From NCBI GenBank assembly GCA_949358305.1, contig OX442314.1, positions 34,779,608-34,843,607 of the forward strand: DNA of 64,000 nucleotides, given 5' to 3'. Of this stretch, positions 1,297-54,960 are shown in pieces; within the stretch, counting starts at the first letter, position 1; every line of letters begins with the position of its first letter. The notes under the pieces were generated by a model that was not told the origin of the DNA, did no database searches, and worked only from the letters and a program-made list of their open reading frames with translations. This DNA is from Strigamia acuminata. Lineage: Eukaryota > Arthropoda > Chilopoda > Geophilomorpha > Linotaeniidae. The position numbers and the translations under genes are program-made.

Positions 1297-3814
1297 TCAT
1301 TTCCAGGGCCACGGCGGGAAGCAAGGAAGTATGAAACGTCGGGGACTTCGTTGAATGGCCTTACAAGGGTCACGTCCGTATACGAACAGGACTATGAGCA
1401 ACACCACTAAGACGCATAGGAAGAAAAGCGGGGTGAATCTGAAGGTAAATGCGAGGAGAATTCCGTTAGAGCTGATGAAGACGGACATACCGCGAATTTT
1501 GGAACCATGAGTTGTTGGCCATTTACAGTGATCAGGTTGCCTTTCATTCGTCAAATAAATTTTGCCGGATTTTCTGCAATGGATTCGTTTGTTAGCGAGT
1601 GCAGTTTTATTGTCACTTACCGGTATACAGAATTGAGCGTAAATTTATGTATTCTAGGCAGAAGTGCCATTTTACACGGAAAAAGTGCCATTTTACACGG
1701 AAAAAGTGCCATTTTACACCAAAAGTGCCATTTTACACGAAAAAAGTGCCATTTTACACGGAAAAAGTGCTTTTTTACACGGAAAAAAAGCCATTTTACA
1801 CGGAAAAAGTGACATTTTACACGGAAAAAGTAACATTTTACACGGATAAAGTGACATTTTACACGGAAAAAGTGACATTTTACACGGAAAAAGTGTCCTT
1901 TTATCCGAAAAAGTGCCATTTTACGCGGAAGAAATGTTATTTTACACGAAGAAAATGCTATTTTACATGGAAAAAGTCCTATTTTACATAGGAAAAGTGC
2001 CTTTTTGCACTTGAAGAGTGCCATTTTACACGGGAAAAGTGCCATTTTATACTCGTATTGTGCATTCAGCACTGCTTTGGCATTCCTGCTGGTGTCTGTC
2101 CACACTCGCAACAGTCACAGAAAGCGCGTCATGCTTATATCTTGCAAATCACCTTTAAAAGTGAGACACGATGAACATTGAAAGACTACTGGAATTAGCG
2201 AAAAAAGCGGTGTACCCGTGATCACGGTGTTGTGGGGATCAAAAAAAGGACGCCGAGTTCCAAAACGTTTTGTCATTGACAGTAAAAGATACTACTGTGA
2301 ATGTTTGAAAGGAGGAAGGTGAAATATTTTGCAGTCTCTTTCACACTGTGTTTTTGTATCACACACGGCTTAGTAGTGCAGGGGTTTGTGTCTCGTCTAG
2401 AATCGACTCTTCAATGTCTATGTAGAAATGTATTATAAATATGGAAACACATTGCCGTTGCGCCTCACTCAAAATCGGCTCGCAACCCACCAGTGAGCCG
2501 CGCCCCACAGATTGAAAAACACTGGCTTAGTGTGTATTGAATGTTTCTCTCTGGAATTAAATTTTTGTCTAATGTTGGATTTTTGTTTGTAAAATTTGCT
2601 ATACAGTATGTATACAGGGTGTTTCGTTTAAGATGCCCAGTCAATTTCCAGAATAAGTATATGCTTTTTTAAAAAACCAAGCAGACTATCCAATAGCATA
2701 GTAGGGATGCCGAATCCAAGGGTGTAATCAAATTTCATGCCAGATATGCAACAATGGACTTTTCATTTGCTAACTCGTTAGCTGGTTGAGATAGAGCAAA
2801 ATTTCCAATTACAAAGTTGTAGAGAATCATAAAATTAGTAATACCCAACTGATCTTAGTCACCATAAGTTAACTGTTTTTTTTTTTAAAAAAATGAAAAC
2901 AAATCAGCAAATTGAAAATTTTTATTCTTAGAAAATAAAATAATTTAGGCATTAAAAAATACAGTGGTTTTTCTTGTTTACTTGCATAATAATGCAAATT
3001 TGAATACATTTATTGAAGAAATTCAGTACTTTTGCAGTAGAAATTTAATTTTTGCCACAATGGCTGGCTTTATTTCAGCTGCTTTGTTTTTATTTTAAAA
3101 TGAGAAAATTTAACTTAAGAAGACTAAGATAAGTTTGATAGTACTAATTTGATGGTGGTCTACAACTTTGTAATTGGAAATTTTGCTCTACCTCAACCAG
3201 TTAACGAGTTAGCGAATGAAAAGTGCATTGTTGCATATCTGGCATAAAATTTGATTACACCATTGGATTCGTCATCCCTACTTTGCTATAGGATAGTCTG
3301 CTTGGTTTTTTAAAAAAGCATATACTTATTCTGGAAATTGACTGAGCATCTTAAACGAAACAACCCTGTATATTAATTTGGTATTAATCCGGCACTGTCT
3401 TCGGAGTTTGATTAACATTTGAATTAATAATCCGTACCGGTAATAATAAAATAATTTCGAAATAAGTTTGTTTACAATTTCTGTTTCGTACTGCACAGAC
3501 ACTGCGAACCGCCTTCATTCCAATCGGCGAAAACAACCTCGTTGTACTCATGGTGCGGCTCGGTGCATTTTCGGCGACAGAAAAAGCATTGCATGAAATG
3601 CTGCCGTTCATCCCAATCGTACCCGGCCATCTCGCGAATTCTATGAGCGTCGTCTACGAAAATAAATAACAAAATAACAAAAGCACAAAAATATATATAT
3701 TTTAAATTTATTACCAATTTCCGATGACGACAATACGACCGTTTTTAAGTCTTGACCGTGACAGAACACGGCAGAAAAGAGCAGTAAACAAAACAAATCC
3801 GGCGTGGAAACCAT
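1297..3814 (-). CDS. Array unit I: Cys-rich single-pass membrane protein, three exons
   Basis: Predicted CDS is complement(1297-1573, 3476-3653, 3715-3814), 184 aa. Exon 1 gives MVSTP plus a hydrophobic signal peptide ending near SAVFC. The 61-nt intron is gtaata...tag. Exon 2 contains CFFCRRKC and CLC, ends KQKL and splices at gtaaac. Exon 3 (type B2) starts KSGK, has DHCKW, a transmembrane stretch around FFLCVLVVLLIVLF, and a basic Cys-containing tail with a TGA stop. The phases (1, then 2) join without a break. An AATAAA lies about 20 nt past the stop (1272-1277). The start chosen is the ATG conserved in all copies before the signal peptide. Without splicing, exon 2 ends in an immediate TAA, which would leave a secreted form. 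A role as a receptor, antigen or toxin-like protein cannot be told apart here. No family match is recognised. Confidence 0.6.
1655..2065. repeat. 21-bp minisatellite, TACACGG variant, in intron 2 of unit I
   Basis: About 18 imperfect copies of a unit reading gtgccattttacacggaaaa plus one base. Open frames cross it on both strands, but they translate only the repeat and shift phase between entries, so they are not genes. The same variant occupies the same intron in unit V (53400-53600) and, briefly, in unit III (11990-12110). Confidence 0.9.
2380..2530. mobile_element. hAT-like MITE remnant in intron 2 of unit I
   Basis: The segment begins caggggttt and ends ttgaaaaacactg, and contains the block ctcgcaacccaccagtga. 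Such ends are common in small hAT-derived elements. A related copy lies at the same intron position in unit V (53930-54165), while unit IV has an uninterrupted sequence there. I see no coding capacity. Confidence 0.5.
2615..3368. mobile_element. 754-bp MITE with ~208-bp terminal inverted repeats, TA target
   Basis: The left end cagggtgtttcgtttaag and the right end, read in reverse, cagggttgtttcgtttaag continue as near-identical inverted arms (2615-2822 and 3162-3368). TA dinucleotides flank both ends (2613-2614 and 3369-3370), as in Tc1/mariner-type non-autonomous elements. The centre is AT-rich with no ORF. It lies in intron 2 of unit I. Confidence 0.85.
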
Positions 3815-3868
3815 GATGTTTTCTCGAAAAAATCGCCTGCAAAATTGTTGCATATAGAATAGAAATCG

Positions 3869-3874
3869 CACGTG
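3869..3874 (-). promoter_or_regulatory. Conserved CACGTG box upstream of unit I exon 1
   Basis: A palindromic E-box lies 55 nt before the ATG, inside a block (tcgcacgtgatgacaacaatgg on the plus strand is split here only by one base of drift) that recurs upstream of exon 1 in units II, III and IV and in the extra exon 1 of unit V. Conservation against otherwise drifting spacers suggests a promoter or 5'UTR element. No binding protein can be named. Confidence 0.4.
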
Positions 3875-4063: not shown

Positions 4064-4099
4064 TTTTATTAATTCAAATTTGAGATTACATTTTGAGGG

Positions 4100-4300
4100 A
4101 TTTTTTGGTTTTACACATTGATCAGGTGAAGAAGGTGTGTGTTGTAATTTTGTGTCAATTGGCTCCAATGTATTGAAAATCCCGACTGATGGTCTGCACC
4201 GCCAGGGGGAGTTGTATTGTAATCTCGCGGCCCCAACACGTCTAACGGCACTTCCGGTTTGGACCGCATTGTCGTACACACTCATTCGTTCTCGCGTAAT
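4100..4300. repeat. Dispersed repeat shared with 42096-42240
   Basis: The blocks ccgccagggggа-like core, gtaatctcgcgg and cacttccggttt occur in the same order and spacing here and at 42096-42240. Here the block sits just upstream of a copia-type gag, so it may be LTR or leader sequence. The other copy is not attached to copia coding sequence. Confidence 0.45.
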
Positions 4301-4360
4301 CAAGATCGCCGAGACCCAACATCGGATTTATCATCGCCAATCACCAAAACATTTACAAAA

Positions 4361-5620
4361 ATGTCAACCGAAGCAATGAGGATCGAAAAATTGACCGACG
4401 ACAATTACAGTACGTGGAAACTATGCCTCGAGAGCGTCTGTTACGACAGCGGTACGTGGGAGACTCTTACGACTAAAAACCCACGACCAATTGCAAATGC
4501 AACGGACCCATCTCTCAACGCCGCCGAAATTGCCGCGTGGGACAAGGCGAACGGCAAAGCAAGAAGAGACTTGCTATCATCAATCACGTCCGAACAAATG
4601 AAACACGTTATCGGGATCGCAAGCGCATACGACATGATGGAACGAATAAAAGAAGTACACGAGGATTCGGGTGATATTCGAATCACCAGGTTAATCGTTA
4701 GTCTAATGACGAAGCGATTGTCAACGGATGGTGATCTAAAAAATCACTTACGATTCTACGCCGATACTATTCGTATTCTTGACGAAAATGCGACAAAGAT
4801 CACAAACGATATGCTTGCGACGACGGCTTTGTTACTTAGCTTGCCCGATAAATACGCAAGCATACGATGCGCAATTCGGGCACTATCCACCACGCCACCA
4901 TTCGCCGAGGTCGCCAGTAAATTAACCGACGATCTGCACAGAAGAGAAGCCGCCGCCGCATTCGCACCAAAATCGGAATCCACTCAAGACGCGATGCTCG
5001 TGAAAAACGATAAATCGAAGGATAATCAGAATCGGAACAAGAGCGACAAGAAGTGCGATTTCTGTGGACGACTTGGACACGAAAAAGCGAATTGTTTTTT
5101 CTACAAAAAACAACTAAATACCGAAAAATCCGAGAAGTTATCGATCGCGGAATCGTATTTACTGAACGCTGAAATCGTCGCCTTCATACGAGAAAACCAA
5201 AAGCAATGGATTTTGGACAGCGGCGCAACGAGCCACACGTGTGCGGACGAGGACAAATTCGAGGAAATCGACAAAAGCGTGGAAGGAAATATGCAATTGG
5301 CCAGCTCAGACACCTCGAAATCGATCGGACTAGGAACAGTTGTATTTTCGAATGAAAAAGGAGAGACGATAAGACTAGAAAACACGCTTTTAGCACTAGA
5401 TATGCGAATGAACATAATGTCCGTCAGTAAAATCACTGACAAAGGATTTGGCGTCAACTTCGACGATATATGCGCGAAAATAATCAACCGAAAAACGCAG
5501 AAAGTCATTAGAACTGCGAAACGTAAAGGGAACCTGTATTTGATCACCGAAGCGGAAGAAAGAACGAACGCGCTGAAAACCAAATCGAAAATCCAGCAAT
5601 GGCACGAAAAATTCGGGGCT
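4361..5620 (+). pseudogene. Ty1/copia-type gag-protease fragment, 3' truncated
   Basis: The frame opens at ATG 4361 (MSTEAMRIEKL) and encodes a copia-type Gag (UBN2-like, with DDNYSTWK), a CCHC zinc knuckle CDFCGRLGHEKANC near residue 235, then an aspartic protease active site LDSGATSH near residue 285 and the start of a GAG-pre-integrase domain (WHEKFG). Similarity stops at about 5620, where the frame runs into GCCATTT minisatellite sequence and terminates at 5719. Integrase, reverse transcriptase and RNase H are missing. No downstream LTR is visible. The reading frame itself is unbroken, so truncation rather than point decay removed function. It lies between array units I and II. Confidence 0.8.
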
Positions 5621-5635
5621 GCTGCCCTCCGAGCA

Positions 5636-5790
5636 ATAAAAATGCCATTTCGAGCTAAAGAATGCCCTTTTTTAGCTGTAAACATGCGGTTTATAGACGA
5701 AAATGAATGTGCATTTTGAACAAAAAATATACTATTTTATGCTGGAAGTGTGACATTATGTTACAAAAAGTGCGATTTTTAAATAACAAT
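5636..5790. repeat. Degenerate GCCATTT minisatellite
   Basis: A few imperfect units (aaaatgccatttcgagct and relatives) directly abut the copia truncation point. The motif aacatgcggtttatagacga recurs at 9027 and 40873, so this is array-unit sequence. Confidence 0.6.
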
Positions 5791-7660: not shown

Positions 7661-8581
7661 GTTTTGGTTTGTCATTTTTTCGGCCCATGAGTGGTACTTT
7701 CCGTTTGCAGTAATCAGCTTGCGGTTCAACGCTCGTATCGGCTTGGCTGGATTGCCTACAACGGAATTAGGTTGTTAGCTAGTGCTGTTTTAGTGCCACT
7801 TGGATAGAATTACGTGTGAATTTATAAACTGAATAAACACTATTCTGTGCACACCTGCGGATTTTGTATTGTTTGTATTGATGTGACACAAAAATCAAAT
7901 TTTTGAAACAAAAATCAAATTTTTGACACAAAAATCAAATTTTTGACACAAAAATCAAATTTTTGACACAAAAATCAAATTTTTGACACAAAAATCAAAT
8001 TTTTGACACAAAAATCAAATTTTTGACACAAAAATCAAATTTTTGACACAAAAATCAAATTTTTGACACAAAAATCAAATTTTTGACACAAAAATCAAAT
8101 TTTTGACACAAAAATCAAATTTTTGACACAAAAATCAAATTTTTGACACAAAAATCAAATTTTTGTGTAAAAAATTGTGCTTAATTAGCTTTTGGATTAA
8201 TAATCCATAATAATAAAATAAATTAAAAAATAAATTTGTTTACAATTTTTTTTTCGAACTGCACACACACTGCGAACGGCCATCATCCCAATTTACGAAA
8301 ACATCCTCGTCTTTCTCGTGGTATCCTTCGATGCATTTTCGACGACAAAAAAAACATTCCATGAATTGCTGCCGTTCATCCCAGTTGTAGCCGGCCAACT
8401 CCCGAATTCTATGAGCGTCGTCTATAAAAATAAATAACAGATTAACAAAAGCAAAAAATTTATATCTTTTAAATTTATTACCAACTTCCGTTGATGACAA
8501 TGCGACCGTTTTTAAGTCTTGATCGTAACAGGACACGGCACAAATTAGCAGTAAACAAAACAAAATCGGCGAGGAAAACAT
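7638..8581 (-). CDS. Array unit II: truncated Cys-rich protein, transmembrane part lost
   Basis: Predicted CDS is complement(7638-7755, 8244-8421, 8482-8581), 131 aa. Exon 1 gives a signal peptide (MFSSPILFCLLLICAVSC) and exon 2 has CFFCRRKC and CVC; both keep the family lengths (100 and 178 nt) and splice sites. Intron 1 is 60 nt. The terminal exon starts QSSQ with ADYCKR, then runs into the LTR-derived insertion and stops at a TGA after about 15 foreign residues. The transmembrane segment and basic tail are gone, so the product, if made, would be secreted. It may be a pseudogene. Confidence 0.5.
7893..8165. repeat. 20-bp tandem repeat, ~14 near-identical copies
   Basis: The unit acaaaaatcaaatttttgac contains the self-complementary core caaatttttg. 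Copies are almost identical, implying recent homogenisation. It lies in intron 2 of unit II. Similar single units occur at 50240 and, as gcaaaacttaaatttttgac, at 54215-54330. Confidence 0.95.
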
Positions 8582-8844: not shown

Positions 8845-9180
8845 CGTTATTAAAGTTATAAAAGTGCCATTTCAAGTTATAAAAGTACCATTTCAAGTTG
8901 TTAAAGTGCCATTTCAAGTTATAAAAGTGCCATTTCAAGTTGTTAAAGTGCCATTTGAAGTTATAAAAGTGCCATTTCAAGTTATAAAAGTGCCATTTCA
9001 AGTTATAAAAATTCTATTTTTAGCTATAAACATGCGGTTTAAAGACGAAAGTGCCATTTTGAACAAGGAAGGTACTATTTTGAGCAAGGAAAGTACCATT
9101 TTGAACAAGGAAAGTACCATTTTGAACAAGGAAAGTACCATTTTGAACAAGGAAAGTACCATTTTGAACACAAAAGGTAT
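8845..9180. repeat. Two adjoining 21-bp minisatellites upstream of unit II
   Basis: About eight copies of gtgccatttcaagttataaa plus one base (8850-9020), then about six copies of agtaccattttgaacaagga plus one base (9045-9175). The second variant also lies upstream of exon 1 in unit III (12700-12905). Confidence 0.9.
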
Positions 9181-9951: not shown

Positions 9952-10237
9952 TTATCGCTTTTCCGTCGCTAACCATTTACCGAACCCTATGATGATGGGG
10001 TCGTTTCGGAGGCGTCGAAAGAGGAAACGCAAAATTTTATTTGACAATAGCAACACGATTATGGTAGTCAGTAAGATGCACCAACAGTCAAGCAGGGAGC
10101 TTCTGCCGCTAACTGCAATGGAAATTGCGGGTCCGGATTCTATCAATCTGGGCAATCGCTTGTAGCCCAAGAGCGGTACTGTCCGTTTGCAGTGATCAGC
10201 TTGCGGTTCGTCGCTCGTATCGGCTGGGCTGGATTGC
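9952..10237 (-). CDS. Alternative terminal exon B1 of array unit III
   Basis: The acceptor ctttctag ends at 10238, and the exon opens G CAA TCC (QSSPADT...), with ADHCKR, then the hydrophobic span CWCILLTTIIVLLL and a basic tail (FLFRRLRN) ending EKR-TAA. Joined to exons 12145-12322 and 12383-12482 it gives 187 aa in frame. If used, the B2 exon at 11600-11873 would be skipped and intron 2 would be 1,907 nt. An alternative view is that it belongs to a separate decayed locus, but its phase compatibility argues against that. Confidence 0.5.
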
Positions 10238-10689: not shown

Positions 10690-11400
10690 GTGCCATAAAG
10701 TGCCATTTTACACGGATAAAAATGCCATTTTACGCTGAAAAAATACCATTTAATAAAAAAAAATACCATTTGACAAAAAAAATACCATTTTTCACTGAAA
10801 AATACCATTTTTCACTGAAAAATACCATTTTTCACTGAAAAATGCCACTTTACACCGAAAAATGCCATTTTACGCTAAAAAATGCCACTTTACGCATTTT
10901 ACACTGTGCCATTTTACACAAATGTAGTGTCATTTTGCAGAAATAAAGTGCCATTTCAAATTATGAAAATGCCATTTCAAGTTATGAAAATGCCATTTCA
11001 AGTTATGAAAATGCCATTTCAAGTTATGAAAATGCCATTTCAAGTTATGAAAATGCCATTTCAAGTTATGAAAATGCCATTTCAAGTTATGAAAATGCCA
11101 TTTCAAGTTATGAAAATGCCATTTCAAGTTATGAAAATGCCATTTCAAGTTATGAAAATGCCATTTCAAGTTATGAAAATGCCATTTCAAGTTATGAAAA
11201 TGCCATTTCAAGTTATGAAAATGCCATTTCAAGTTATGAAAATGCCATTTCAAGTTATGAAAATGCCATTTCAAGTTATGAAAATGCCATTTCAAGTTAT
11301 GAAAATGCCCTTTCAAGTTATAAAAGTGCCATTTCAAGTTATAAAAGTGCCATTTCAAGTTATCAAAGTGCCATGTCAAGTTAGAAAAATGCTGTGGATT
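10690..11400. repeat. GCCATTT minisatellite, ~21 near-perfect CAAGTTATG copies
   Basis: Degenerate ACACGG and CGCTGA units (10690-10920) precede 10948-11390, where gccatttcaagttatgaaaa plus one base repeats with hardly a change. Two long ORFs, one on each strand, translate only the heptapeptide repeat. Confidence 0.95.
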
Positions 11401-11599: not shown

Positions 11600-12482
11600 T
11601 CATCTGCCGAGCCACCTGCAGTAACGAAGTCTGAAACGTCGGAGACGTCGTTGGATCGCCACACCAAGGTCACATCTGTTTGCGAAGAGGACGACGATCA
11701 ACGCCGTAAAGAGGTATAGGAAGAAACGCGGGGTGAATCTGCAGTTAAATGCGAGCGTAATTCCGTCAGAGCTGATGAAGACGGACAAACCGCGAATTTT
11801 GGACTCAAAAGCTGCTGGCCATTTACATTCATCAGATTGCCCTTCATTCGTCGAAATAGTTTGGCCGGATTGCCTGCAATGGGATTCGTTTGTTAGCGAG
11901 TGCTGTATACTTATAGACTATTCATTGATGAAGATATTTTACTTCATAAAGGTAAATTTTTCCATTCATGAGTGTATTTTTAGGAAATGACAATATTTTT
12001 GCCGAAAATGTGCCATTCTAGGCAGAAGTGCCATTCTATACAAAAGTTTCTTTTTATCCGTAGAAGATGCCGTTTTACATGAAAAAAACGCCATTTTACA
12101 CGGAATCCGTAATAATAAAATAACTTCAAAATAAATTTGTTTACAATTTCTGTTTCGTACTGCACAGACACTGCGAAGCGCCTTCATCCCAATCGACGAT
12201 AACATCCTCTTCTTTCTCGTGGTATCCTTCGATGCATTTTCGGCGACAGACAAAGCATTCCATGAAATGCTTCCGTTCATCCCAGAGGTAGCCGATCAAC
12301 TCGCGGGTTCTATGAGCGTCGTCTACAAAAATAAAGAAAATAAGAACAAAAGCAAAAAATTTATATATTTTAAATTTATTACCCATATCCGATGACGACA
12401 ATGCGACCGTTTTTGAGTCTTGATCGTGACAGGAGACGGCACAAATGAGAAGTAAACAAAACAAAATGGGCGAGGAAAACAT
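11600..12482 (-). CDS. Array unit III: Cys-rich single-pass membrane protein, best-preserved copy
   Basis: CDS is complement(11600-11873, 12145-12322, 12383-12482), 183 aa. Exon 1 encodes MFSSPILFCLLLICAVSC and a short DQD segment. Exon 2 carries CFVCRRKC and CLC. Exon 3 (B2) starts QSGQ, has DECKWP, SVFISSDG, the transmembrane run FFLYLFTALIVVLF and a strongly basic tail (QRRLRRFRLR). Introns are 60 and 271 nt. All three exons are open, with consensus GT/AG borders, and no transposon lies inside. Topology by the positive-inside rule would put about 100 residues outside and the Arg-rich tail in the cytoplasm. No domain match is recognised. Confidence 0.65.
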
Positions 12483-12699: not shown

Positions 12700-12910
12700 A
12701 GAATGTGCCTTTTTGAACAAGAAAAGTGCCTTTTTGAACAAGAAAAGTGCCTTTTTGAACAAGAAAAGTGCCTTTTTGAACAAGAAAAGTGCCTTTTTGA
12801 ACAAGAAAAGTGCCTTTTTGAACAAGAAAAGTGCCTTTTTGAACAAAAAAAGTGCCATTTTGAATAAGAAAAGTGCCATTTTACTATTAAAAGTGCCTTT
12901 CATGCTTTAT
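12700..12910. repeat. 21-bp minisatellite, TTTTGAACAAG variant
   Basis: About nine copies of gtgcctttttgaacaagaaa plus one base upstream of unit III exon 1, mirroring the position of 9045-9175 in unit II. Confidence 0.9.
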
Positions 12911-14607: not shown

Positions 14608-14908
14608 CTATCTTACGAGCCGGTTGAGGATGCGATAGAGTCGGAAACGTCGAATAATTCGGGGAGGTCGAATACGACGGAAGCGTCGCAAGAGGTAAAT
14701 ACAAATTTTAGCTGACAATAGCAACATGCCGATAAAAACCAGGAAGAAGCACATCGAGTCAAACAGAGAGATTTTGCCGCGAGCTTCCAGCTCAAATCCG
14801 TGTTTTATCTCCAAGGTGGGTAAATGTCGGCTGTAGCCCTCGAGTGATACTGTCCATTTGCAGTGATCGGCTTGCAGTTCAAGGCTCGTATTGGCTTGGC
14901 TGGATTGC
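14608..14908 (-). CDS. Orphan terminal exon B1
   Basis: The exon opens G CAA TCC after the acceptor ttccgttatag and encodes QSSQANT, ADHCKW, then FELEARGKISLF, the transmembrane run CFFLVFIGMLLLS and a long Arg-rich tail (LLRRFRRIRPPRIIRRFR) ending in TAG. It is the longest B1 tail seen. Its exons 1 and 2 are not within 15 kb, because the giant MULE at 15277-40198 landed in the spacer upstream. If the locus were ever spliced, intron 2 would exceed 25 kb. Confidence 0.5.
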
Positions 14909-15268: not shown

Positions 15269-15439
15269 ATGAATATGGGGTGCCGTTCCAACGGCGAATC
15301 GTCCAAGGGCGAATCTGGCCATTCGGACGAATGGCGAATTTCGACTTTATTCTGTCCAAAACAGTCCCAACGGCAAATTTCTCCCAATTCAGCATTGGGA
15401 CTGCTTTTGGACCTTTCTAATGGCGAATTGGTAAACGAT

Positions 15440-15810: not shown

Positions 15811-16077
15811 ACGAGCCGAGTGTGTATTTAAAGTGCTTGTGAGTCACGAGCGAACGATTTGGTTTGTTTAAACTGGTCGACTGATTTATTTAGAAAGTTC
15901 TGCTGTTTAAATAAGACGAATTAAACAGAACGTTGAGTGGACGTGATTCCCTAAAGCAAACGAACTGTGGACGTGATGCCAGGCGAGAGGTGACCGGATG
16001 TCACAGTGCTAAAGCCAATATTGGCCTAATATTGGTAGGCTACAAGAACGTATTGCTAGCTGATCGATTTTTACACA

Positions 16078-40198: not shown

Positions 40199-40206
40199 AT
40201 GAATAT

Positions 40207-41115
40207 CTTTAAAATCATAAAAATATTTTGTATCTAAAAGTTAAAAAGTAAATTTTTGAATTCATAAGTGGACTTTTAGCAACTGAAAACTGACTTGCGG
40301 AAAAGAACGATTTACCACTGAGCTAGTGCCATTTCACACGGAATTAGTGCCATTTCACACGGAATTAGTGCCATTTCACACGGAATTAGTGCCATTTCAC
40401 AATAAATTAGTGCCATTTCACAATGAATTAGTGCCATTTCACAATGAATTAGTGCCATTTCACACTGAATTAGTGCCATTTCCAACGGAATTAGTGTTTT
40501 TTCACCCAAAATTAATGTCATTTCACACAGAATTAATGTCATTTCACCAGAAAAAATGCCATTAAGTACCATTTTACACAGAAAAAAATGCCATTTTACG
40601 CTGAAAAATACCATTTACCGCAGAAAAAAATACCATTTTACACTTACTCGTAAACAATACCTTTTTACTTTAAACAAATACCATTTTACTCTAAACAAAT
40701 GCCATTTTACTGTAAGCAAATATCATTTTAGTCTAAACAAATGCCATTTTACGCTAAAAAATGCCACTTTACGCTAAACAATATAATTTTACACAATTTT
40801 AAGTTATAAAATTGCCATTTCAAGCTATAAAAATGCCATTTCAAACTGTAATAATGCCATTTCAAGCTGTAAACATGCGGTTTATAAACGAAAGTGCCAT
40901 TTTTAACAAGAGATATGCCATTTTAAACATTTGCTATTTTATACTAGATAAATGCCATTTTATGCCATATGTACAATAGCATTTTTTGCTAATTAAGTAA
41001 AATTTTACGCTATGAAAATGCCATTTTATGCTAGAAAAGTGCCATTTTAGGCTAGGAAAGTGCCATTTTAGGCTAGAAAAGTCTCATTATGTTACAAAAA
41101 GTGCCATTTTTAAAT
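40207..41115. repeat. Array spacer and GCCATTT minisatellites
   Basis: A conserved spacer (40207-40320), about twelve ttagtgccatttcacacgga units (40325-40560), mixed TACACAG, ACTCTAAAC and ACGCTA units (40560-40790), then CAAGCTAT and similar units to about 41110. It continues the array interrupted at 15276. Confidence 0.85.
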
Positions 41116-41480: not shown

Positions 41481-41739
41481 TCAGTTGAAGATGCGGAATA
41501 TTCGGTTGCGTCGGAGGCTTCGCCAGAGGTAACGACAAATTCTCGCTGACAATGTCAACACTCCTATAAAAACCAGGGCGAAGCATATACCAACAAACAA
41601 AGAGGCTTCGCCGTGAGATGCCTTGGCTCCGGCAATTTTCTCCGAGGTGGTTAAATCTCGCCTCTGGTTCACGAGTGGTACCGTCCATTTGCAGTGATCA
41701 TCTTGCAGTTTAACGCTCGTATCGACTTGGCTGGATTGC
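41481..41739 (-). CDS. Orphan terminal exon B1
   Basis: The acceptor ttatag ends at 41740 and the exon opens G CAA TCC: QSSQVDT, DDHCKW, then a 45-residue linker, the transmembrane run FVGICFALVFIGVLTL and the basic tail RYLWRSLRRNR ending IFN-TGA. Phase and motif match the family. The nearest candidate exons 1-2 are at 50325-50662, beyond the BEL insertion, so use would need an ~8.6 kb intron. The 3' flank (41280-41470) is conserved with other B1 copies. Confidence 0.5.
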
Positions 41740-42970: not shown

Positions 42971-43269
42971 TGTGGAAACTGGCGGTTTCCAAAGTGAACC
43001 AGTTTAATTATGTCTTTTAACACCGTGGCGCAAGTGAAAAAAGCTCACTTGTGACCCGGATCTGTATTCTTGGAATTTAAGGATTAGCTTAATCCTTTTG
43101 TGTTATATACCTAAAAATTTGAATAAAATTTCACTGTCTTTTCAAATGTAACCTTGTCTACATCGTTCTTTGAGTTTACAACAACCTTCGATCCGAATCC
43201 GACTCCATCCGTAGTTTTAATAAGTTTAAAGAGTGTTTCATTTATACAAGTTGCTCGTGCAACGTTACA
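42971..43269 (+). repeat. 5' LTR of BEL element
   Basis: Starts tgtggaaactggcggtttcc and ends gcaacgttaca. It is followed directly by a primer-binding site, tggtgccgaaacccggga (43270-43287), for a tRNA I cannot name. Confidence 0.95.
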
Positions 43270-43318
43270 TGGTGCCGAAACCCGGGAAACATTTTTGAAA
43301 ACGAACCAGAACGCGAAA

Positions 43319-46300
43319 ATGGACGATTTGGCAAGAAGTCGTGCACAAAGGGAAACACAGAGAAAAAGCGTGCGTGCGCTTTTTGCGAAATTGACGAAAG
43401 AAATGGCCGAGGATCCCCTCAACGAGGTACGATTATTATGCATACAAGCCCAACTAATCACAAAACGTTTAAAAATCGATAAACTGGACACAATAATCGC
43501 CGACGGGATCACCGACGTGAACGAGGTGGACCAAGACGAATTCGAAGCGGAAGAACTACAAGACGAGATGACCGCCGCCCGAATCACACTCGAAGTCGCC
43601 TTGAAAGAACTCGAGCAAATGAAACAAACACCACCACAGCAAATACCACCGCAAGTACCACTCGCAAATATACCACTAGCTAACCCTCTTTTCGTTCCAC
43701 CTGTGCAAAACCCGAACCCAATCCAACCACAATGTGCAGTGATGAAACTACCGAAGTTAGAAGTCGCCAAGTTTAAAGGCACGCCGGAAACCTGGACGGG
43801 ATTCTGGTCCGACTTCGAATTGAGCGTGCACAATAATACGGCGTTGCCCAAAACCGCCAAGTTTGTATATTTGCGGTCACTCGTCGAAGGACTTGCAGCG
43901 AATGCGATCAGCGGACTGACCGTAACGGAACTTAACTACGACACCGCCATTACCCTACTCACCAATCGATTTGGTCGCAAGGAACAAATTGTCGGTGCGC
44001 ACATGGCCAAGCTGCTCGAAATGCCATCCGTGAAACGAGTAGAAGATGTGGCGGCCCTACGGAGACTCTATGATTTCTGCGACCTGCATATTAAAAGCCT
44101 CGAAAACCTCGGAGTACCGGCGGAAACCTTTGGCCCATTGTTATGCCCACTACTCGCGCGTGCTGTGCCAACCAGCATACAACATGATTTTGCACGTCCA
44201 CGAGGAGATGCACCTTGGGTTGTTAAAGAATTTTTGGACTTTTTTAGATTCGAAGTAGCGATGCGAGAGCGTACAGAAGCCGCAGACAAAACCAACAATA
44301 AAACACAAGAATCGACGGAAGCCCCGAATACCAAAAAAGAAGAGGTGAAGAAAACCAATTACAAGTCTAATAATCACAGTTCCGCTTCAGCCCTCTCCAA
44401 CATTGTCTACAAATGCACGTTTTGCGAGAAAGAAGATCACAAGAGTCCAGACTGTCCGTTGTCCGTGGAGAAACGAAAGGAAGCGTGTTTCAAGGCCCGA
44501 CGTTGTTATCGATGCTTAAAAGAGAATCATCAGGCTCGCCAATGCAACACCCGATTTAAATGCCGAAAATGTGAGCAGAAACATCACACGTATTTGTGCG
44601 ATAAGGAAGACAACAAGAAGACGGAAACAACTTTGACTTCGGCCGTTCAAGAATCAACAAGTACAGAAACCGTGATGTTCCTGCAGGTCGTCGTGTTGGA
44701 GGCCAACGGAGACAACGAGAAGAGAAGAGTCCAATGCTTCTTGGATGGGGGATCCCAAAGAAGCTTTATAACTGAAAAACTGTCGAGAGAACTGCAACTA
44801 GAGAAGATTGGTGAGCAGTCAATCGCCCTCTTGACTTTCGGATCTACTGAACCAACAATTGCCAAACGGAAACAGGTGAAGTTAAGTTTGAATAACTGTG
44901 AAAATAGAAATTGCAATTTAGAAATCAAAGCGCTTGAGTCGCCCTGGATAACTCCAACATTACGAGGAAAACCTGACGAACGAGTATTGGAAAAACTAAA
45001 GAAATACAACATCAAACTGGCTTACGACAACAGCGTTCACAGGGACGACGGCGTTTCCATCTTAATTGGCGTCGACAACTTTTGGAGAGTTACAACGGGA
45101 AAGCAGCAACGCATCGACGAAAATCTCATGGCAATCGAAACCATATTTGGATGGACGTTGCACGGCTCAACCGGAGAGACTGAAACAACCGTGTCGTCTT
45201 TAGTACGGGTAAACAAGATTTTAGTTGCCGATAATACAGATGAACTTTTAGAAAAATTCTGGAACTTGGAATCGATTGGGATTCGCCACGAGACTATGGA
45301 ACCGGGAATCGATGAAGTGGACACGTTGAAACGATTCAAAGAGCAGATCGAGTGGGTAGGTGACCATTACGAAGTGGGATTCCCGTGGAAGATTGACCGC
45401 AAGGAATTGAACGACAATCGAGATGTTGCAAAAAAGCGTTTGTGGAGTTTAATTAACCGTTTTCGAAAAAATCCCAAGTTATATTTAGACTATAAAAAAG
45501 GGATCGACGAACAACTCGCCTCCGGAATCTTGGAAAAAGTTCCGAAGAACTCGAAACCAGACAACCCGTATTATATCCCTCATCGACCAGTAATTGACGA
45601 AACTCGAGCCACAACAAAGCTAAGAATTGTGTATGACGCGTCGTCACACGCAAAAGGATGTTTAGCGCTAAACGACTGTCTGAGTAAGGGTCCGAATATG
45701 TTACCTCATCTAATAAACATTGTTTTGAAGTTCCGAACCGGCAAATACGGCGCAATCGGCGACATCGAGAAAGCCTTCCATCGAATACATCTCAAGACGG
45801 ACGAACGAGACGTCACACGACTTTATTGGATTGAGGACGGGTGGAACGGTGAAGAGTCGGTAAAACTAATTGAATTACGCCAAACTCGAGTTCCATTTGG
45901 GACAGGACCCAGTCCATTTTTACTAAATGCAACAGTAAAAGAACACGTCGACAAGTTTGAAGACCAATACCCGGACACATGCGACAAGCTGAAAGAAGAC
46001 TTGTATGTAGACGATTTTGTAACAAGTATTGACAATTCGAACAAGTTAATTCAAATTTATGATGAGAGTCGTGAGATTTTGCAAGCCGCGAACATGAAAT
46101 TAACCAAATGGAAGTCGAATGATATGAAATTACAAGAGAAAATTATACGAGATGACCCAGATTGTGACGTGACAGTTTTTCAAAAGAAAACTAAGGTTTT
46201 GGGGGTAGTTTGGGATATTGAGTTAGATAAATTGGGATTAGACATTACTGCATTGATTAACGAGATTAACTTGACCAAATACACCAAAAGATTTATTGTA

Positions 46301-48601
46301 AGAATTACCGCAATGATTTTTGACCCGTTGGGAATGGCAAACCCCTTTGTGATAACTGCTAAAATTATTTTTCAGGAACTTTGGAAATTAAATGTTGGGT
46401 GGGATGACGTCATTCCAGAATATGTGAAGATAAAATGGGAAAATTGGTATGTTCAGATACCCTACCTCGAAAATTTAAATTTAGAGCGCAAATTGTTAAA
46501 TTGGGGAGGAAATTGTAGGAAAAGGATTCACATCTTCTGTGATGCCAGTCCGAGAGCGTATGGCGTAGTAGCCTACACTCGAGTTCTGGACGAAACAAAT
46601 GCTGTTAATATTGATTTTATCATTTCCAAGTGTAGAGTGGCGCCTGTAAAGGAACTAACATTACCAAAGCTGGAACTGATGGGCGCGCTACTGGCAACAA
46701 GACTGATTCCAACATTGAAAGCGACTCTTGGGTGTGAGGATTTCACAATTTGGACCGATTCCAAGATAGTTTTGCACTGGATCCGCGACACCAAGAACCG
46801 ACCAGCGACATTCGTGTACAATCGTGTACGAGAAATTGTCGAGAATACATCGAGAGACGATTGGCGCCACTGCCCAGGGAAAGATAATCCGGCCGACCTG
46901 GTAACGAGGGGAGTAAACGTGAAGCAGCTCACCGAGGAACCATTCTGGCTGAAAGGACCGACGTGGATGTCAGGCGACGAATCCGGATGGCCAAATGAAG
47001 ACGATAAAGCAGTTCCAATCGACGAAGATGAAGAAAAAGACGTGATCGTGACGCTGACAGCAATAACAACACCAGACATTGATTTTAACCGTTTCAGCTC
47101 GTGGAAAAAACTAAAAAGAGTTACTGCTTGGGTTTTTAGATATATTACGAATCTGAAGACGAAAAACAGGGATGGAGAACCGCTGAGAAACGAGGAACTC
47201 GAGCAGAGCGAACGATATTGGCTGAAATACTTACAACAAGTGGGATTCCAGAGAGAAATTAGATGTTTGACTGACCAAAAACCAATTGAAAAATCATCAT
47301 CAATTTTGAAGTTGGCGCCAATATTAGACGACAATGGGTTGTTGAGAGCCACACACCGATGGGGATCTGTCGAACTTGACCGCAATACACGCGAACCCTT
47401 TTTATTACCAAACGAACATTTTATAACTAAATTGATTGTTTTAGGCAAACACGAACGAGCTTTACACAGTGGACTGGCCGACACATTGAGTGGACTTCGA
47501 GAGAGATTCTGGATCGCCCGTGCGAGAAAAACAATCAAGGGAATCATCCACAAGTGTGTTTGCTGTCGGAAAATACAAGGACGTTTAGCCAAAGAAAAGT
47601 GGGGATTGCTACCCATTGATCGTGTTACGCCGAGTGAGCCGTTCGAAATATGTGGAGTCGATTTTGCGGGTCCTCTCTACACCAAATTGGGTAACAAAGT
47701 GTATATTGCCCTGTTTACATGTGCTGTGACACGTGCAGTTCACCTGGAATTGCTCTCCAACTTGAGTACCGATAAGTTTATTGACTGTGTGAAGCGTTTT
47801 ATTTGTCGGCGAGGAATTCCCAAAACTATATACTCCGATAACGCCAAAACGTTTAAAAGGACTGACAAGGAAATTAATTTGTTTTTGAAATATTTACCAG
47901 AAGAACAGTTTCAAGGATTTATTACGGAGAAACAAATTACATGGAAATATATTGTTGAGACTGCACCTTGGTGGGGTGGTTTTTGGGAGCGCATGGTGCG
48001 TTCCGTGAAACTGGCGCTAAAGAAAACGATTGGGAAGAACACACTTGATTATGAGGGACTTGTGACCATACTCGCAGAAGCTGAAGCTGTTGTGAACTCC
48101 AGACCATTAACCTATGTTTATGATACTCCTCATGAAGAATTACCCCTTTCCCCCTCTCATTTTCTCTTAGGAAAACGCATTTCATTTCTGCCGACCGCAC
48201 CGAAATATTCCACCAATCCGGGATCAAAAGATGACATCTTAAGAGCGTGGAAATACCGACAAACACTTATCCAACGATTTTGGGACCGTTGGACGAAGGA
48301 ATACTTAATCGAATTACGCCAACACCGAGGCGTCACCAGTCATACGAAATTTAACGTGGGAGACATCGTGATCATCGAGGACCAAAACCGGCCGCGACTT
48401 ACGTGGAAACTCGGACGCATCACCTCCGTGAAGGAGGGTCGTGACGGCTTGATTCGCTCCTGCGAAATCCAGATGTCCAACGGGACACGTCTACGAAGAC
48501 CCATCCAGAGACTATGCAACCTCGAAGTGGAAACCGAAGTCCCAGTCTGCCGGGACGGGGGGACTGTGGAAACTGGCGGTTTCCAAAGTGAACCAGTTTA
48601 A
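43319..48601 (+). CDS. BEL/Pao Gag-Pol polyprotein
   Basis: 1,760 aa from ATG 43319, the first Met after the primer site; the open frame also extends upstream into the LTR. Gag has a DUF1759-type domain (FKGTPETWTGFWSDF, residues ~140-280) and three zinc-knuckle-like motifs near 365-430 (CTFCEKEDHKSPDC, CYRCLKENHQARQC, CRKCEQKHHTYLC). The protease motif reads FLDGGSQRSFI near 474. Reverse transcriptase has YVDDFV near 895, followed by the Pao/RNase H region (FCDASPRAYG, TDSKIVLHW). The integrase has an HHCC finger (~1378-1420), then the Asp, SDNAKT and WWGGFWER motifs (~1446-1550) and a C-terminal DUF5641-type domain (FWDRWTKEYL). The last 12 codons and the stop lie inside the 3' LTR. Confidence 0.95.
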   Translation: MDDLARSRAQRETQRKSVRALFAKLTKEMAEDPLNEVRLLCIQAQLITKRLKIDKLDTIIADGITDVNEVDQDEFEAEELQDEMTAARITLEVALKELEQMKQTPPQQIPPQVPLANIPLANPLFVPPVQNPNPIQPQCAVMKLPKLEVAKFKGTPETWTGFWSDFELSVHNNTALPKTAKFVYLRSLVEGLAANAISGLTVTELNYDTAITLLTNRFGRKEQIVGAHMAKLLEMPSVKRVEDVAALRRLYDFCDLHIKSLENLGVPAETFGPLLCPLLARAVPTSIQHDFARPRGDAPWVVKEFLDFFRFEVAMRERTEAADKTNNKTQESTEAPNTKKEEVKKTNYKSNNHSSASALSNIVYKCTFCEKEDHKSPDCPLSVEKRKEACFKARRCYRCLKENHQARQCNTRFKCRKCEQKHHTYLCDKEDNKKTETTLTSAVQESTSTETVMFLQVVVLEANGDNEKRRVQCFLDGGSQRSFITEKLSRELQLEKIGEQSIALLTFGSTEPTIAKRKQVKLSLNNCENRNCNLEIKALESPWITPTLRGKPDERVLEKLKKYNIKLAYDNSVHRDDGVSILIGVDNFWRVTTGKQQRIDENLMAIETIFGWTLHGSTGETETTVSSLVRVNKILVADNTDELLEKFWNLESIGIRHETMEPGIDEVDTLKRFKEQIEWVGDHYEVGFPWKIDRKELNDNRDVAKKRLWSLINRFRKNPKLYLDYKKGIDEQLASGILEKVPKNSKPDNPYYIPHRPVIDETRATTKLRIVYDASSHAKGCLALNDCLSKGPNMLPHLINIVLKFRTGKYGAIGDIEKAFHRIHLKTDERDVTRLYWIEDGWNGEESVKLIELRQTRVPFGTGPSPFLLNATVKEHVDKFEDQYPDTCDKLKEDLYVDDFVTSIDNSNKLIQIYDESREILQAANMKLTKWKSNDMKLQEKIIRDDPDCDVTVFQKKTKVLGVVWDIELDKLGLDITALINEINLTKYTKRFIVRITAMIFDPLGMANPFVITAKIIFQELWKLNVGWDDVIPEYVKIKWENWYVQIPYLENLNLERKLLNWGGNCRKRIHIFCDASPRAYGVVAYTRVLDETNAVNIDFIISKCRVAPVKELTLPKLELMGALLATRLIPTLKATLGCEDFTIWTDSKIVLHWIRDTKNRPATFVYNRVREIVENTSRDDWRHCPGKDNPADLVTRGVNVKQLTEEPFWLKGPTWMSGDESGWPNEDDKAVPIDEDEEKDVIVTLTAITTPDIDFNRFSSWKKLKRVTAWVFRYITNLKTKNRDGEPLRNEELEQSERYWLKYLQQVGFQREIRCLTDQKPIEKSSSILKLAPILDDNGLLRATHRWGSVELDRNTREPFLLPNEHFITKLIVLGKHERALHSGLADTLSGLRERFWIARARKTIKGIIHKCVCCRKIQGRLAKEKWGLLPIDRVTPSEPFEICGVDFAGPLYTKLGNKVYIALFTCAVTRAVHLELLSNLSTDKFIDCVKRFICRRGIPKTIYSDNAKTFKRTDKEINLFLKYLPEEQFQGFITEKQITWKYIVETAPWWGGFWERMVRSVKLALKKTIGKNTLDYEGLVTILAEAEAVVNSRPLTYVYDTPHEELPLSPSHFLLGKRISFLPTAPKYSTNPGSKDDILRAWKYRQTLIQRFWDRWTKEYLIELRQHRGVTSHTKFNVGDIVIIEDQNRPRLTWKLGRITSVKEGRDGLIRSCEIQMSNGTRLRRPIQRLCNLEVETEVPVCRDGGTVETGGFQSEPV

Positions 48602-50324: not shown

Positions 50325-50662
50325 AATTTCTGATTTGTACTGCACACACACTGAGAAACGCTTTCATTCCAATCGGCGAAAACACCCTCGTTTTTCTTCT
50401 GGTACAGCACGGTGCATTTTTGGCGACAAAAAAAGCATTTCATGAATTGCTGCCGTTGATTCCAGCCGTAGCCGGCAAACTCGCGAATACTATGAGCGTC
50501 GCCTACAAAAATAAATAACAAATTAACAAAAGCAAATAATTAAAATATTTTAAATTTATTACCAATTTCCGATGACGACAATACGACCGTTTTTAAGTCT
50601 TGGTCGTGACAGAACACGACAGAAATGAGCAGTAAACAAAACAAAACGGGCGAGGAAAACAT
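50325..50662 (-). CDS. Array unit IV: exons 1 and 2 only
   Basis: Exon 1 is 50563-50662 (MMFSSPVLF-like start region with MFSSPVLFCLLLISVVFC from 50662) and exon 2 is 50325-50502, with the family lengths of 100 and 178 nt and a 60-nt intron. Exon 2 has CFFCRQKC and CVC. Its first codon becomes Gly instead of Asp. The donor gtaaac is intact, but the adjacent B2 exon has been deleted. The nearest B1 exon downstream is at 41481-41739. Without a terminal exon the reading frame would stop at the TAA within the donor, giving a 92-residue secreted peptide. Confidence 0.5.
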
Positions 50663-51244: not shown

Positions 51245-52239
51245 CTATTTTCTGAACAAGTTGACGATGCGGTAGAGTAGGAAAATTCCAAGGCGTCGGA
51301 GGTCGTAACAGAGACCAGAAGAGACTCTAGGATCCGACAGTACCAACGCGAGTCCGGCCACCGCTAATAAAACAATCCAATCCGACCAGCAGATCCTGCC
51401 GCGAGTTGAAAAGTAAATTCCGTAAATCCACGACTATTCATCGCGCGACTACTCATCGTGTACAGCAAATCGCGTCTACATCGTCACTTATTATCGGTTC
51501 AATAATCATTGTATCATTGTATCATTGTATCATTGTATCATTGTATCATACTTGTGTCTCATTTCTTTTTACTCCTTTGGAGTGCGATCAAATAAATAAA
51601 TAAATAAATAAATAATCGCGTGCAAAGTAATCGCGTGGCCAACTCATCGGGGTGACAATTGGGTGGTCGTCAATAAGTAATCGCGCGATTCATCGCGTCA
51701 TTCATCGCATTTCAAAAATCTAAATGATTTTGTACTTTTAAGATTTTTTAGGTGTGTTGGGCAACGTACAACGCTGTACCTTTAACTGTGATTGGTGATT
51801 GAAACCAAACGAACTGTTTAATTGTAATTCACTCAATTTTTTAGCCATTTTTATACAATTGTCCGTCGAATTCTGTAACGAGTCACTTGAAATTGTGGCA
51901 GTTGTTGTTCAACATTCAAGTTTATATTGACGCAGATGCCTCTTTGAGTCAGGGCTGGAGTGGGTACAAATTTAATACCGGGAAATCTGGATGGGACGGG
52001 CCACAGGGATGGGCCACAGAGACGGGCCAGTCGACGACCGCCCAATTGTCGCCCCGATGAGTTGGCCACGTGATTTCGTTGCACGCGATTACTTGTCTGC
52101 GCGATTAGCTGTACACGATGCGTGGTTGCGCGATGATTAGTCGCCGTACCTGATCGAGATCTGTCCTTGTTGCTCGTGGGCCATGCGTTCGCAGTAATCA
52201 GTTTGCCGTACATCGCTCGGATCTTCTTGACTGGATTGC
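51245..52239 (-). pseudogene. Terminal exon B1 of unit V, split by a TIR element
   Basis: The 5' part (about 52150-52239) has QSSQEDPS and TDYCER after a normal acceptor. The 3' part (51245-51425) has GIYFSTRGRICW, the hydrophobic run WIVLLAVAGLALVL and LFRK-TAG, closely matching the exon at 1-199. About 720 bp of foreign DNA separates them and introduces a stop, so the exon as it stands would encode only about 33 residues. Confidence 0.6.
51426..52150. mobile_element. ~0.72-kb element with imperfect inverted ends inside exon B1
   Basis: The left end (cgactattcatcgcgcgact, catcgtgtacagc) is inverted at the right end (gctgtacacgatg, gcgcgatgattagtcg). The interior has about five tcattgta units (51508-51548) and an aaat run (51590-51615). 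The GTAATCGCG-type motifs recur (51620-51700). No ORF for mobility; non-autonomous. Confidence 0.6.
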
Positions 52240-52730
52240 CTATAACGGAATTAGTTTGTTAGCGAGTGCTGTTTTAGTGCCACTTGGACAGATTTACGTG
52301 CGAATTTATATACACTTAGTAAAGAATATTCATTGATGGAAATCTTTTAAATCATGAAGACATTTGGTATCTAAAAGTATATTTTTGCATTCACAAGTAA
52401 TGTTTGAGCAACTGAAAATACACGTGCTGAAAAGTACTATTTAACAAGCTAGTGCCTTTTCACACGGAAAAAGTGTCATTTCACACGAAAAAACACCAAT
52501 TCAGCCGGAAAGAGTGCCCTTAAGTGCCATATTACACTGAAAAAATACCATTTTATGCGAAAAAAAAATGCCATTTTATGCAGAAAATTGCCACTATAAT
52601 TTTACACTAGTGTGCCATTTCAGATTAGAAAAGTGCCATTTCAAGTTAGAAAAGTGCCATTTCAAGTGAGAAAAGTGCCATTTCAAATTCGAAAAATGTC
52701 ATTTCAAGTTAGAAAAATGCTGTGGATTAA
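52240..52730. repeat. Array spacer and short GCCATTT minisatellite, unit V
   Basis: Spacer matching 10238-10680, then degenerate CACACGG and CAAGTTAG units (52450-52720), the same variant order as between B1 and B2 in units I and III, but with only about ten copies. Confidence 0.7.
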
Positions 52731-52978: not shown

Positions 52979-54799
52979 TTATCTGAGCAACCTGTAGAAA
53001 CGTCGGAAGCATCGTTTGATGACCTTACAATAGTCTCTATACAGGGCGACGACCAACACCACAAGGAAGCATAATAAGAAATACGGGGTATAACTGCAGT
53101 TAAATCCGAAGGTAATTCCGTCGAAGTTGATGAAGAAGGACATACCGCGAATTTGGGACAAAGGATCTGTTGGCCATTTGCAGGGATCAGGTTTCCTTTC
53201 GTCCGTCGTATAAGTTTGGCCGGATTGCCTGCAATGGGATTCGTTTGTTAGCGAGTGTTGTTTTGTTGCCACTTATACAAAATTGCGCGTGAATTTATGT
53301 ATATTTATAGACTATTCATTGATGAAGATCTTTTACTTCAGAAAGGTAAATTTTTCCATTCATCGGTGAATTTTTAATAAATGACAATTTTTGTGCCGAA
53401 AAAGTGCCATTCTAGGCAGAAGTGCCATTCTACACAAAAAAGTGTCTTTTTAACCTAAAAAGTGTCCTTTTACACGGAAAAAATGCCGTTTTACGCGGAA
53501 AAAATGCCGTTTTACGCGGAAAAATGCCATTTTACACGAAAAAGGTGCCATTTTACACAGGAAGAGTGCCATTTTTCAGGAAAAGTGCCATTTTATACAC
53601 GAATTGTGCATTCAGCACTGCTTTGGCACTCCTGCTGGTGTCTGTCCACACACGCAACAGTCAAAGAAGGCGCGTGATGCTTATTTTGCAAATCCCCTTT
53701 AAAAGTGAGACACGATGAACCATTGAAGGACTAATAGAATTATCGACAACAGCGGTGTACCCGTGATCACGGTGTTGTGGGGATCAAAAAGAGGACGCCG
53801 AGTTTCAAAACGTTTTGTCATTGACGGTTAAAGATACTACTGCTAATGTTTGAAAGGAGGAAGTTGGAATATTTTGCAGTCTCTGACACACTGTTTTTGT
53901 ATCACACACGGCTTAGTAGTGCAGGGGTTCTCAAAGGCAATACATCGCGATCCAATTCGTCCCGAACGCATTGAATTTTTCAGTGAAACATATTGACTAG
54001 TAGCTAGTCAAAAAATAAAACGGAAACAATTAAATAGACGAAATGTATTGGACATATAGAAACACATTGCTGTTGCGTCTCACTCAAAACCGGCTCGCAA
54101 CCCACCAGTGACCCACCAGTGACCCACCAGTGACCCGCGCCACAAAGATTGAAAAACACTGGCTTAGTGTGCATAGTGTATTCAATGTTTGATGTTTCTG
54201 TCTTAGATTAAATTTTTGGCGCAAAACTTAAATTTTTGACGCAAAACTTAAATTTTTGACGCAAAACTTAAATGTTTGACGCAAAACTTAAATTTTTGTC
54301 GCAAAACTTAAATTTTTGTCTAAAGTTGAATTTTTGTTTGTAAAATTTGTTATTTTAGATATTAATTTGGTATTAATTCGGCACTGTTTTCGGAGTTTAA
54401 TTAGCATTTGAGTTAATAATCCGTAATAATAAAATTATTTCAATATAAAATTGTTTACAATATCTGTTTCGTACTGCACAGACACTGCGAAGCGCCTTCA
54501 TCCCAATCGGCGAAAACATCCTCGTTTTTCTCGCGGTACCGCTCGATGCATTTTCGGCGACAGATATAGCATTGCATGAACTGCTGCCGTTCATCCCAGA
54601 CGAATCCGACCATCTCGCGACTTATATGAGCGTCGTCTGTAAAAATAAATAACAAAATAACAAAAGCAAAAAATTTATATCTTTTAAATTTATTACCAAT
54701 TTCCGATGACGACAATACGACAGTTTTCAAGTTTTGATGGTAACAGGTCACGGCAGAAATGAGCAGTAAACAAAACAATAAAATGAGTGAGGAAAACAT
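52979..54799 (-). CDS. Array unit V: Cys-rich single-pass membrane protein, three exons
   Basis: CDS is complement(52979-53228, 54459-54636, 54697-54799), 176 aa. Exon 1 is one codon longer than in other units (MFSSLILLFCLLLISAVTC). Exon 2 has CYICRRKC and CLC and ends KQIL at the gtaaac donor. Exon 3 (B2) starts QSGQ, has DPCKWP, SFFINFDGI, the transmembrane run FLLCFLVVLVVALY and tail KRCFRRFYRLLR-TAA, with AATAAA just downstream. Intron 1 is 60 nt; intron 2 (1,230 nt) holds the TACACGG minisatellite and a hAT remnant. The promoter block of this exon 1 is missing; a second exon 1 lies directly upstream. Confidence 0.6.
53400..53600. repeat. 21-bp minisatellite, TACACGG variant, unit V intron 2
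   Basis: About nine imperfect units (aaaatgccgttttacgcgga and relatives), at the same position and of the same variant as 1655-2065. Confidence 0.85.
53930..54165. mobile_element. hAT-like MITE remnant, unit V
   Basis: Starts caggggttctcaaa and ends ttgaaaaacactg, with the block gacccaccagt repeated three times. Same insertion position as 2380-2530 in unit I. Confidence 0.55.
54215..54330. repeat. 21-bp tandem repeat, five copies
   Basis: Unit gcaaaacttaaatttttgac plus one base. Related in core (aaatttttgac) to the 20-bp array in unit II intron 2 (7893-8165). Confidence 0.85.
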
Positions 54800-54860
54800 G
54801 ATGTTTTCTCGGAAAATTCGTCTGAAAAAATTTTTAAATTTTAAATTTTAAATTTATTAC

Positions 54861-54960
54861 CAATTTCCGATGACGACAGTTTGACCGTTTCTAAGTCTTG
54901 ATCGTAAAGAGACACGACGGGAATGAGGAGTAAACAAAACAAAACTGGCGAGAAAAACAT
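54861..54960 (-). CDS. Extra signal-peptide exon (duplicated exon 1)
   Basis: 100 nt encoding MFFSPVLFCLLLIPVVS and ending SSSEI at a gtaata donor, as in other units. Its intron continues directly into the 5'UTR acceptor-like tttttcag and then the second exon 1 (54697-54799), with no exon 2 between. This looks like a partial duplication from unequal exchange. It has the CACGTG box that unit V exon 1 lacks, so it may supply the promoter and splice either to 54636 or to the next exon 1. Confidence 0.5.

Follow-up and report, generated by a model that had tools for sequence, protein, structure and literature searches.

The window, a stretch of 64,000 nucleotides from the centipede Strigamia acuminata (contig OX442314.1, here C1, 34,779,608-34,843,607), holds a minus-strand cluster of small genes built from a leader exon (exon 1), a cysteine-rich exon (exon 2) and candidate terminal exons (exon 3) (Table 1). 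An earlier note on this DNA had described an undocumented family of small cysteine-rich membrane proteins here, and the six exon 1 copies, five exon 2 copies and three last exons (53228, 11873 and 1573, our type I) on which it relied lie where it placed them, with AG/GT borders and matching phase. The exon lengths hold as well: exon 1 measures 100 nt (54960, 50662, 12482, 8581 and 3814) or 103 nt (54799), and exon 2 measures 178 nt in all five copies. The predicted junctions 3476|1573, 12145|11873 and 54459|53228 are exact, and the spliced type I models stay in frame, at 175, 176, 183 and 184 aa. The proposed CxxCRRKC pattern needs a small amendment, as CRRKC is present in four of the five window copies and the 50502 copy reads CRQKC; the inventory, while correct in its exons, had missed the type II and type III terminal exons and the array beyond the window. 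At window 54697-54960 exon 1 is duplicated in tandem, and a possible acceptor separates the copies. Scans of the window with Rfam (gathering threshold) and for tRNA genes were both empty.

Table 1. Exons of the cysteine-rich family and mobile-element frames, in window coordinates.
Feature	Position	Strand	Details
Exon 1, duplicated upstream copy (leader peptide)	54861..54960	-	100 nt, ATG to GTAATAAA donor
Exon 1, gene 54799	54697..54799	-	103 nt
Exon 2, gene 54799 (Cys domain)	54459..54636	-	178 nt, CYICRRKC...CLC, donor TT|GTAAAC
Exon 3 type I (Cys, hydrophobic span, basic tail)	52979..53228	-	Open frame, acceptor CAG
Exon 3 type II, broken after ~100 nt	52137..52239	-	
Exon 1, gene 50662	50563..50662	-	100 nt
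Exon 2, gene 50662 (CFFCRQKC)	50325..50502	-	178 nt
Exon 3 type II, open; perhaps of gene 50662, insertions between	41481..41739	-	
Exon 3 type II, open	14608..14908	-	
Exon 1, gene 12482	12383..12482	-	100 nt
Exon 2, gene 12482	12145..12322	-	178 nt
Exon 3 type I, gene 12482	11600..11873	-	
Exon 3 type II, gene 12482, second candidate last exon, open	9952..10237	-	
Exon 1, gene 8581	8482..8581	-	100 nt
Exon 2, gene 8581	8244..8421	-	178 nt
Exon 3 type II, truncated	7683..7755	-	Similarity to other type II exons stops at 7683
Exon 1, gene 3814	3715..3814	-	100 nt
Exon 2, gene 3814	3476..3653	-	178 nt
Exon 3 type I, gene 3814	1297..1573	-	
Exon 3 type II, gene 3814, crosses window's left edge	1..199	-	Open 100-codon frame with Cys
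Copia-type gag	4259-5719		
RT/RNaseH/integrase polyprotein	21443-25669		
MULE transposase frame	36193-37365		

By searching the whole assembly (237.5 Mb, 157 contigs), we found that the window captures only part of a large single-strand cluster on the minus strand of C1 at 34.50-34.83 Mb, whose exon copies extend ~277 kb past the window's left edge and are sparse at 34.525-34.62 Mb. A 301-base probe spanning exons 1 and 2 gave at least 31 DNA matches, all 31 of them on the C1 minus strand between 34,502,730 and 34,834,668, and an exon-2 query returned at least 31 rows, 28 in the array and one each on C8, C10 and C11; these counts are lower bounds, since the search scores the best candidates only. 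The 28 array rows represent 27 copies: 25 full-length ones (one with a stop), one divided between two frames and one fragment, leaving 24 of the 27 stop-free. The copy with one stop (674741), the split copy (750515/750579) and the fragment (670422) stand outside the exon-2 profile and the omega runs. An initial pattern search of the whole genome returned 11 matches elsewhere.

The exons lie amid repeats. Minisatellites of ~21 bp (AAAATGGCACTTTT-like) adjoin many of them, at window 524-1029, 1662-2049, 8853-9170 and 10703-11392 and again at 12705-12900, 40324-41082, 52612-52720 and 53398-53603. Tandem arrays of 35 bp and 54 bp units at 15287-16320 and 38912-40240 form an apparent inverted pair ~24 kb apart that encloses the retroelement and MULE transposase frames; the segment is perhaps one large inserted element. 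Direct repeats at 17319-17618/28700-28999 (99%) and 42971-43269/48565-48863 (100%) flank long open frames, that of the second pair running from 43154 to 48601, and such near-identical repeats are as expected of recent LTR insertions.

The regularity of exon 2 exceeds chance. The 22 copies of equal length carry no in-frame stop, compared with 17 and 75 stops in the two alternative frames, a count from which one array copy with a stop was excluded beforehand; an alignment of 14 copies has ten invariant columns, and three relatives outside the array have the intron phase and cysteine spacing in common with it. The in-frame pN/pS of exon 2 is 0.73, versus 0.89 and 0.81 in the other frames, and that of exon 1 is 0.70, versus 0.58 and 1.35, so that the substitution pattern alone fails to single out the coding frame. 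Intron 1 (window 12323-12382 and its counterparts) has a mean pairwise identity of 0.92 in our conservation profile of 21 copies, compared with 0.86 and 0.81 in the flanking exons, and is also more conserved than synonymous sites, perhaps through splicing constraint or gene conversion. We dropped a reading of this contrast as accelerated exons, since divergence at synonymous sites exceeds that of the intron too.

The cysteines divide the copies into two sets. Among 27 aligned copies, four have exactly C-x3-C-x21-C-x-C, 21 have the same pattern and one more cysteine, and two more have x22 or x19 in place of x21. The four-cysteine set comprises the three genes outside the array and a single diverged array copy (L036, 34.62 Mb), and the other 23 of the 24 stop-free array copies bear a fifth cysteine three residues ahead of CxxxC. 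All 24 stop-free copies have an AG acceptor, and 22 of them have a GT donor superimposed, at one fixed place, on an in-frame TAA. In these 22 copies GTAA comes after TT, AT or TC, and without splicing the frame reads a G-ending codon and then TAA. The donor G is retained even in the two copies whose codon is ATG and in the one with TCG. The remaining two copies have GAAAGT in place of a donor and read on into minisatellite-like sequence.

Terminal exons were located with tblastn, using seven type I-III queries against the retrieved sequence. Of 24 places found, 16 have an open frame in the needed phase, a first cysteine and a later hydrophobic stretch; because these exon-3 sets were picked for being open, their lack of in-frame stops holds by construction. 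The first cysteine stands at exon position 13 in type III and at 17 in types I and II, or 19 in two type II exons. The best 19-residue hydropathy mean is 1.88 to 3.14 in 15 of the 16, the weakest span (1.45) being that of the type II exon at 199, and the tail after the span is basic in types I and II. A second cysteine ahead of the strongest span is present in three of the 16. Among the other eight places, five are cut short or contain a stop and one matches weakly. Of the remaining two, that at -3657 is open and has the cysteine but runs into a minisatellite, and that at -87673 stays open over 101 codons and has a tyrosine in the cysteine position, following an exon 2 that has five cysteines. 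Given these exceptions, the coupling of the fifth cysteine to a sixth is a strong tendency and no rule, and we infer that it may reflect one joined protein. A CTAAC- or CTAAA-like stretch lies upstream of both type I and type II exons, and type III has TAAC only; AATAAA or ATTAAA lies at most ~70 bases past the stop in most of the 16, with neither near 11873 or 199. Type III exons occur at five places in the retrieved sequence and at one further place as a search row. Protein searches with all three types recovered the array and produced nothing convincing outside it (one C4 row, E 0.04), and for several exon-2 copies no terminal exon was found within the retrieved sequence.

The three dispersed genes encode small peptides of secreted type. 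Their first exons (148, 82 and 130 nt on C8, C10 and C11) are each 1 modulo 3, their phase-1 introns span 64, 83 and 61 nt, and they carry the same exon-2 motif. The C8 and C10 genes stop five and four residues after CxC, and C11 has a tiny third exon. These peptides end about where the array copies carry the donor and TAA; the array TAA aligns one residue past the C8 stop. Beyond the leader, their best 19-residue hydropathy means are 0.09-0.43, with no membrane span by this measure. Three protein searches (types I, II and III) located no terminal exon for any of the four four-cysteine genes, and none of the three gave a row at 34.525-34.64 Mb. In the exon-2 tree, which was midpoint-rooted for drawing only and in which 13 of the 24 inner branches are open, L036 falls outside the other 23 array copies (91/96), and the array clade is recovered at 96/89. 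A weak further relative of the exon-2 domain lies at G000:C3:25132230-25132352(+), with 41% identity over 41 aa (E 0.012, C11 query).

The earlier note had recognized no known family. Neither a large protein set nor Pfam (over its cut-off) yielded a relative, PDB searches by sequence yielded none that was convincing, and two exon-2 profiles detected no PDB chain at E below 1. Exon 2 does have kin in its three secreted-type paralogues, and its cysteine spacing and predicted fold resemble those of centipede 2ds-CS-alpha-beta peptides. AlphaFold models predict a helix and two strands forming a hairpin (pLDDT 82.8 and 87.4), and fold searches returned no significant match.

Selection was compared across copies by dN/dS, as the earlier note had suggested. 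Exon 2 has an omega of 0.71 (lnL -1794.74, versus -1797.43 at omega 1); fixing omega at 1 costs 2.68 log-likelihood units (~p 0.02, chi-square, 1 df), and a per-site parsimony count finds no positive and seven negative sites. For the terminal exons of types I, II and III, omega detects no purifying selection: it is 2.0 in type I (three copies; above 1 at ~p 0.02), 1.6 in type II (eight copies; above 1 at ~p 0.002) and 0.79 in type III (five copies; no departure from 1). A set of three closely related type II copies gives 50, the upper bound. The values above 1 may mean diversification or decay, and could come from selection or from compensating frameshifts and misalignment.

The genes of this cluster appear to resemble secreted, cysteine-held peptides to which an additional last exon has apparently supplied a membrane anchor. 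In the best explanation, exon 1 would encode the leader (signal) peptide and exon 2 a predicted helix and beta-hairpin domain with CxxxC and CxC, and the stop codon of the secreted ancestor would lie under the array's 5' splice site (TT|GTAA). Use of this site would bypass that stop and append a type I, II or III terminal exon that brings a partner for the new fifth cysteine, a predicted membrane span and a short tail, yielding a type I membrane protein whose ectodomain has six cysteines; intron retention would leave the TAA to end a soluble form. The sequence itself shows the exons with their phases, splice motifs and open frames, as well as the paralogues and the cysteine differences. Fold, leader and membrane span are predictions, splicing, alternative last exons and a tethered role at the cell surface are inferences, and a surface function as ligand, receptor or decoy is a guess. 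The receptor, antigen or selfish toxin-like roles named in the earlier note may or may not apply. We think that the family may work like a tethered peptide, a secreted small domain turned type I membrane protein.

With moderate confidence, we regard the locus as a tandem array, evolving by birth and death, whose small membrane proteins derive from a secreted peptide. In this explanation genes of the C8/C10/C11 kind, secreted and ending at exon 2 or one tiny exon later, would be the ancestral kind. The explanation is favoured by the AG acceptors (24/24), by the donor with TAA (22/24) and its G kept despite codon change, and by 16 open terminal exons with cysteine and span in the needed phase. 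The dispersed genes, with their phase-1 introns (61-83 nt) and no later hydrophobic stretch, point the same way, as do the absence of a terminal exon from the four-cysteine genes against the fifth cysteine of 23 copies, the tree position of L036, the AlphaFold confidence and the exon-2 omega. Weighing against it are the terminal exons without purifying selection, the 8 unfit places out of 24, the two donorless exon-2 copies, the copies without a terminal exon, the second cysteine in 3 of 16, the failure of fold searches to give a significant match and the odd number of cysteines, five, in the retained-intron form. The arrangement of leader, cysteine domain and hydrophobic-span exon proposed earlier is backed by sequence, gene structure and genome relatives, and as an interpretation it is partly supported.

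One competing reading concerns the alternative last exons. In three window intervals (genes 54799, 12482 and 3814) a type I exon precedes a type II exon and no exon 1-2 match separates them, an order that argues against these being leftovers of two genes between which exons 1-2 were lost, although the three may share one ancestry. Rearrangement and insertions are common in the window, and three type III genes in L034 have one terminal exon each. We treat the leftover reading as a serious possibility that falls somewhat short of probable. That the array is mostly decaying, with few active copies and the rest pseudogenes scattered by transposon insertions, is suggested by the broken terminal exons, the weak exon-2 constraint and the retroelement and MULE frames inside the window; with 24 of 27 located exon-2 copies stop-free, we consider it unlikely. 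We also doubt, a little more strongly, that the family is secreted only, with exon 2 ending at the TAA and the downstream open frames belonging to other or dead genes. In favour of such a family, 22 of 24 copies carry the in-frame TAA, one residue past the C8 stop, the terminal exons show no purifying selection and one open terminal exon has no cysteine; the fifth exon-2 cysteine in 23 copies and the near-constant cysteine in 16 open terminal exons, the three diverged terminal-exon types all matching phase, and the donor G kept when the codon changes all speak against it. Last, that the unit is a non-coding satellite or part of a known transposon rather than host genes, the alternative the earlier note had set against its own reading, is highly improbable despite the tandem arrangement and many 21-bp minisatellites, given that the 31 DNA matches found are confined to a single array and strand, that the frame is stop-free and that spliced-looking single genes exist elsewhere.

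If the splices of the preferred explanation are real, the acquisition of a membrane anchor by a secreted peptide would be unusually legible here: one genome still holds dispersed secreted-type genes, a four-cysteine array copy and many derived copies. It would suggest a route from peptide toxins or defensins to surface recognition molecules and offer a gene family for centipede immune, gland or reproductive roles. We put forward only tentatively, as a rather unlikely extension, that a toxin- or defensin-like family was converted to a large changing surface set by a donor over its stop codon and a recruited cysteine-bearing membrane exon, each gene switching between soluble and tethered forms and picking among anchors.

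Among centipede peptides, the closest comparison is with SLPTX15, assigned to Scolopendridae in Table 1 of PMC4379518, where its four cysteines follow the pattern C-C-CxC. The exon-2 copies have this pattern of the 2ds-CS-alpha-beta peptides (SsTx, U-SLPTX15-Sm2a). In SsTx, as described in PMC7232367, C20 and C46 are 26 apart and a helix is joined to a beta-sheet; C26 and C52 of exon 2 are also 26 apart, and AlphaFold predicts a helix and beta-sheet here. This likeness is one of cysteine spacing and predicted fold, the sequence comparison, made via PDB chains only, having detected no similarity, and array members depart from SLPTX15 by having a fifth cysteine, a predicted anchor and, in another exon, a candidate sixth cysteine. 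PMC6878950 presents GEOTX 1 and 2 as venom peptide families seen only in Strigamia maritima, and CHLTX01 as one common to S. maritima and Craterostigmus, all without recognized relatives. The array comes from the same genus, and its genes or the dispersed ones could be members of GEOTX 1, GEOTX 2 or CHLTX01; the exon-2 domain could also fall outside all three, and it may belong to SLPTX15, to GEOTX or to neither. PMC11312834 takes a tick peptide and SLPTX16 as its subject. Literature searches of partial coverage named no membrane-anchored centipede peptide family, which is no proof of absence in print.

Three-disulphide CS-alpha-beta defensins hold six cysteines (C-C-C-C-CxC) in one domain, whereas exon 2 has five (C-C-C-CxC) or four, its extra cysteine standing three residues before CxxxC and the candidate sixth past CxC, in exon 3. 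The IgM heavy chain and stem cell factor are made in soluble and membrane forms through alternative 3' ends. The centipede genes would differ from both in being an array of short peptide genes, in having a donor that overlaps the stop codon and in being known from sequence alone; what they would share with these two is the choice between a stop-containing end and a spliced membrane exon.
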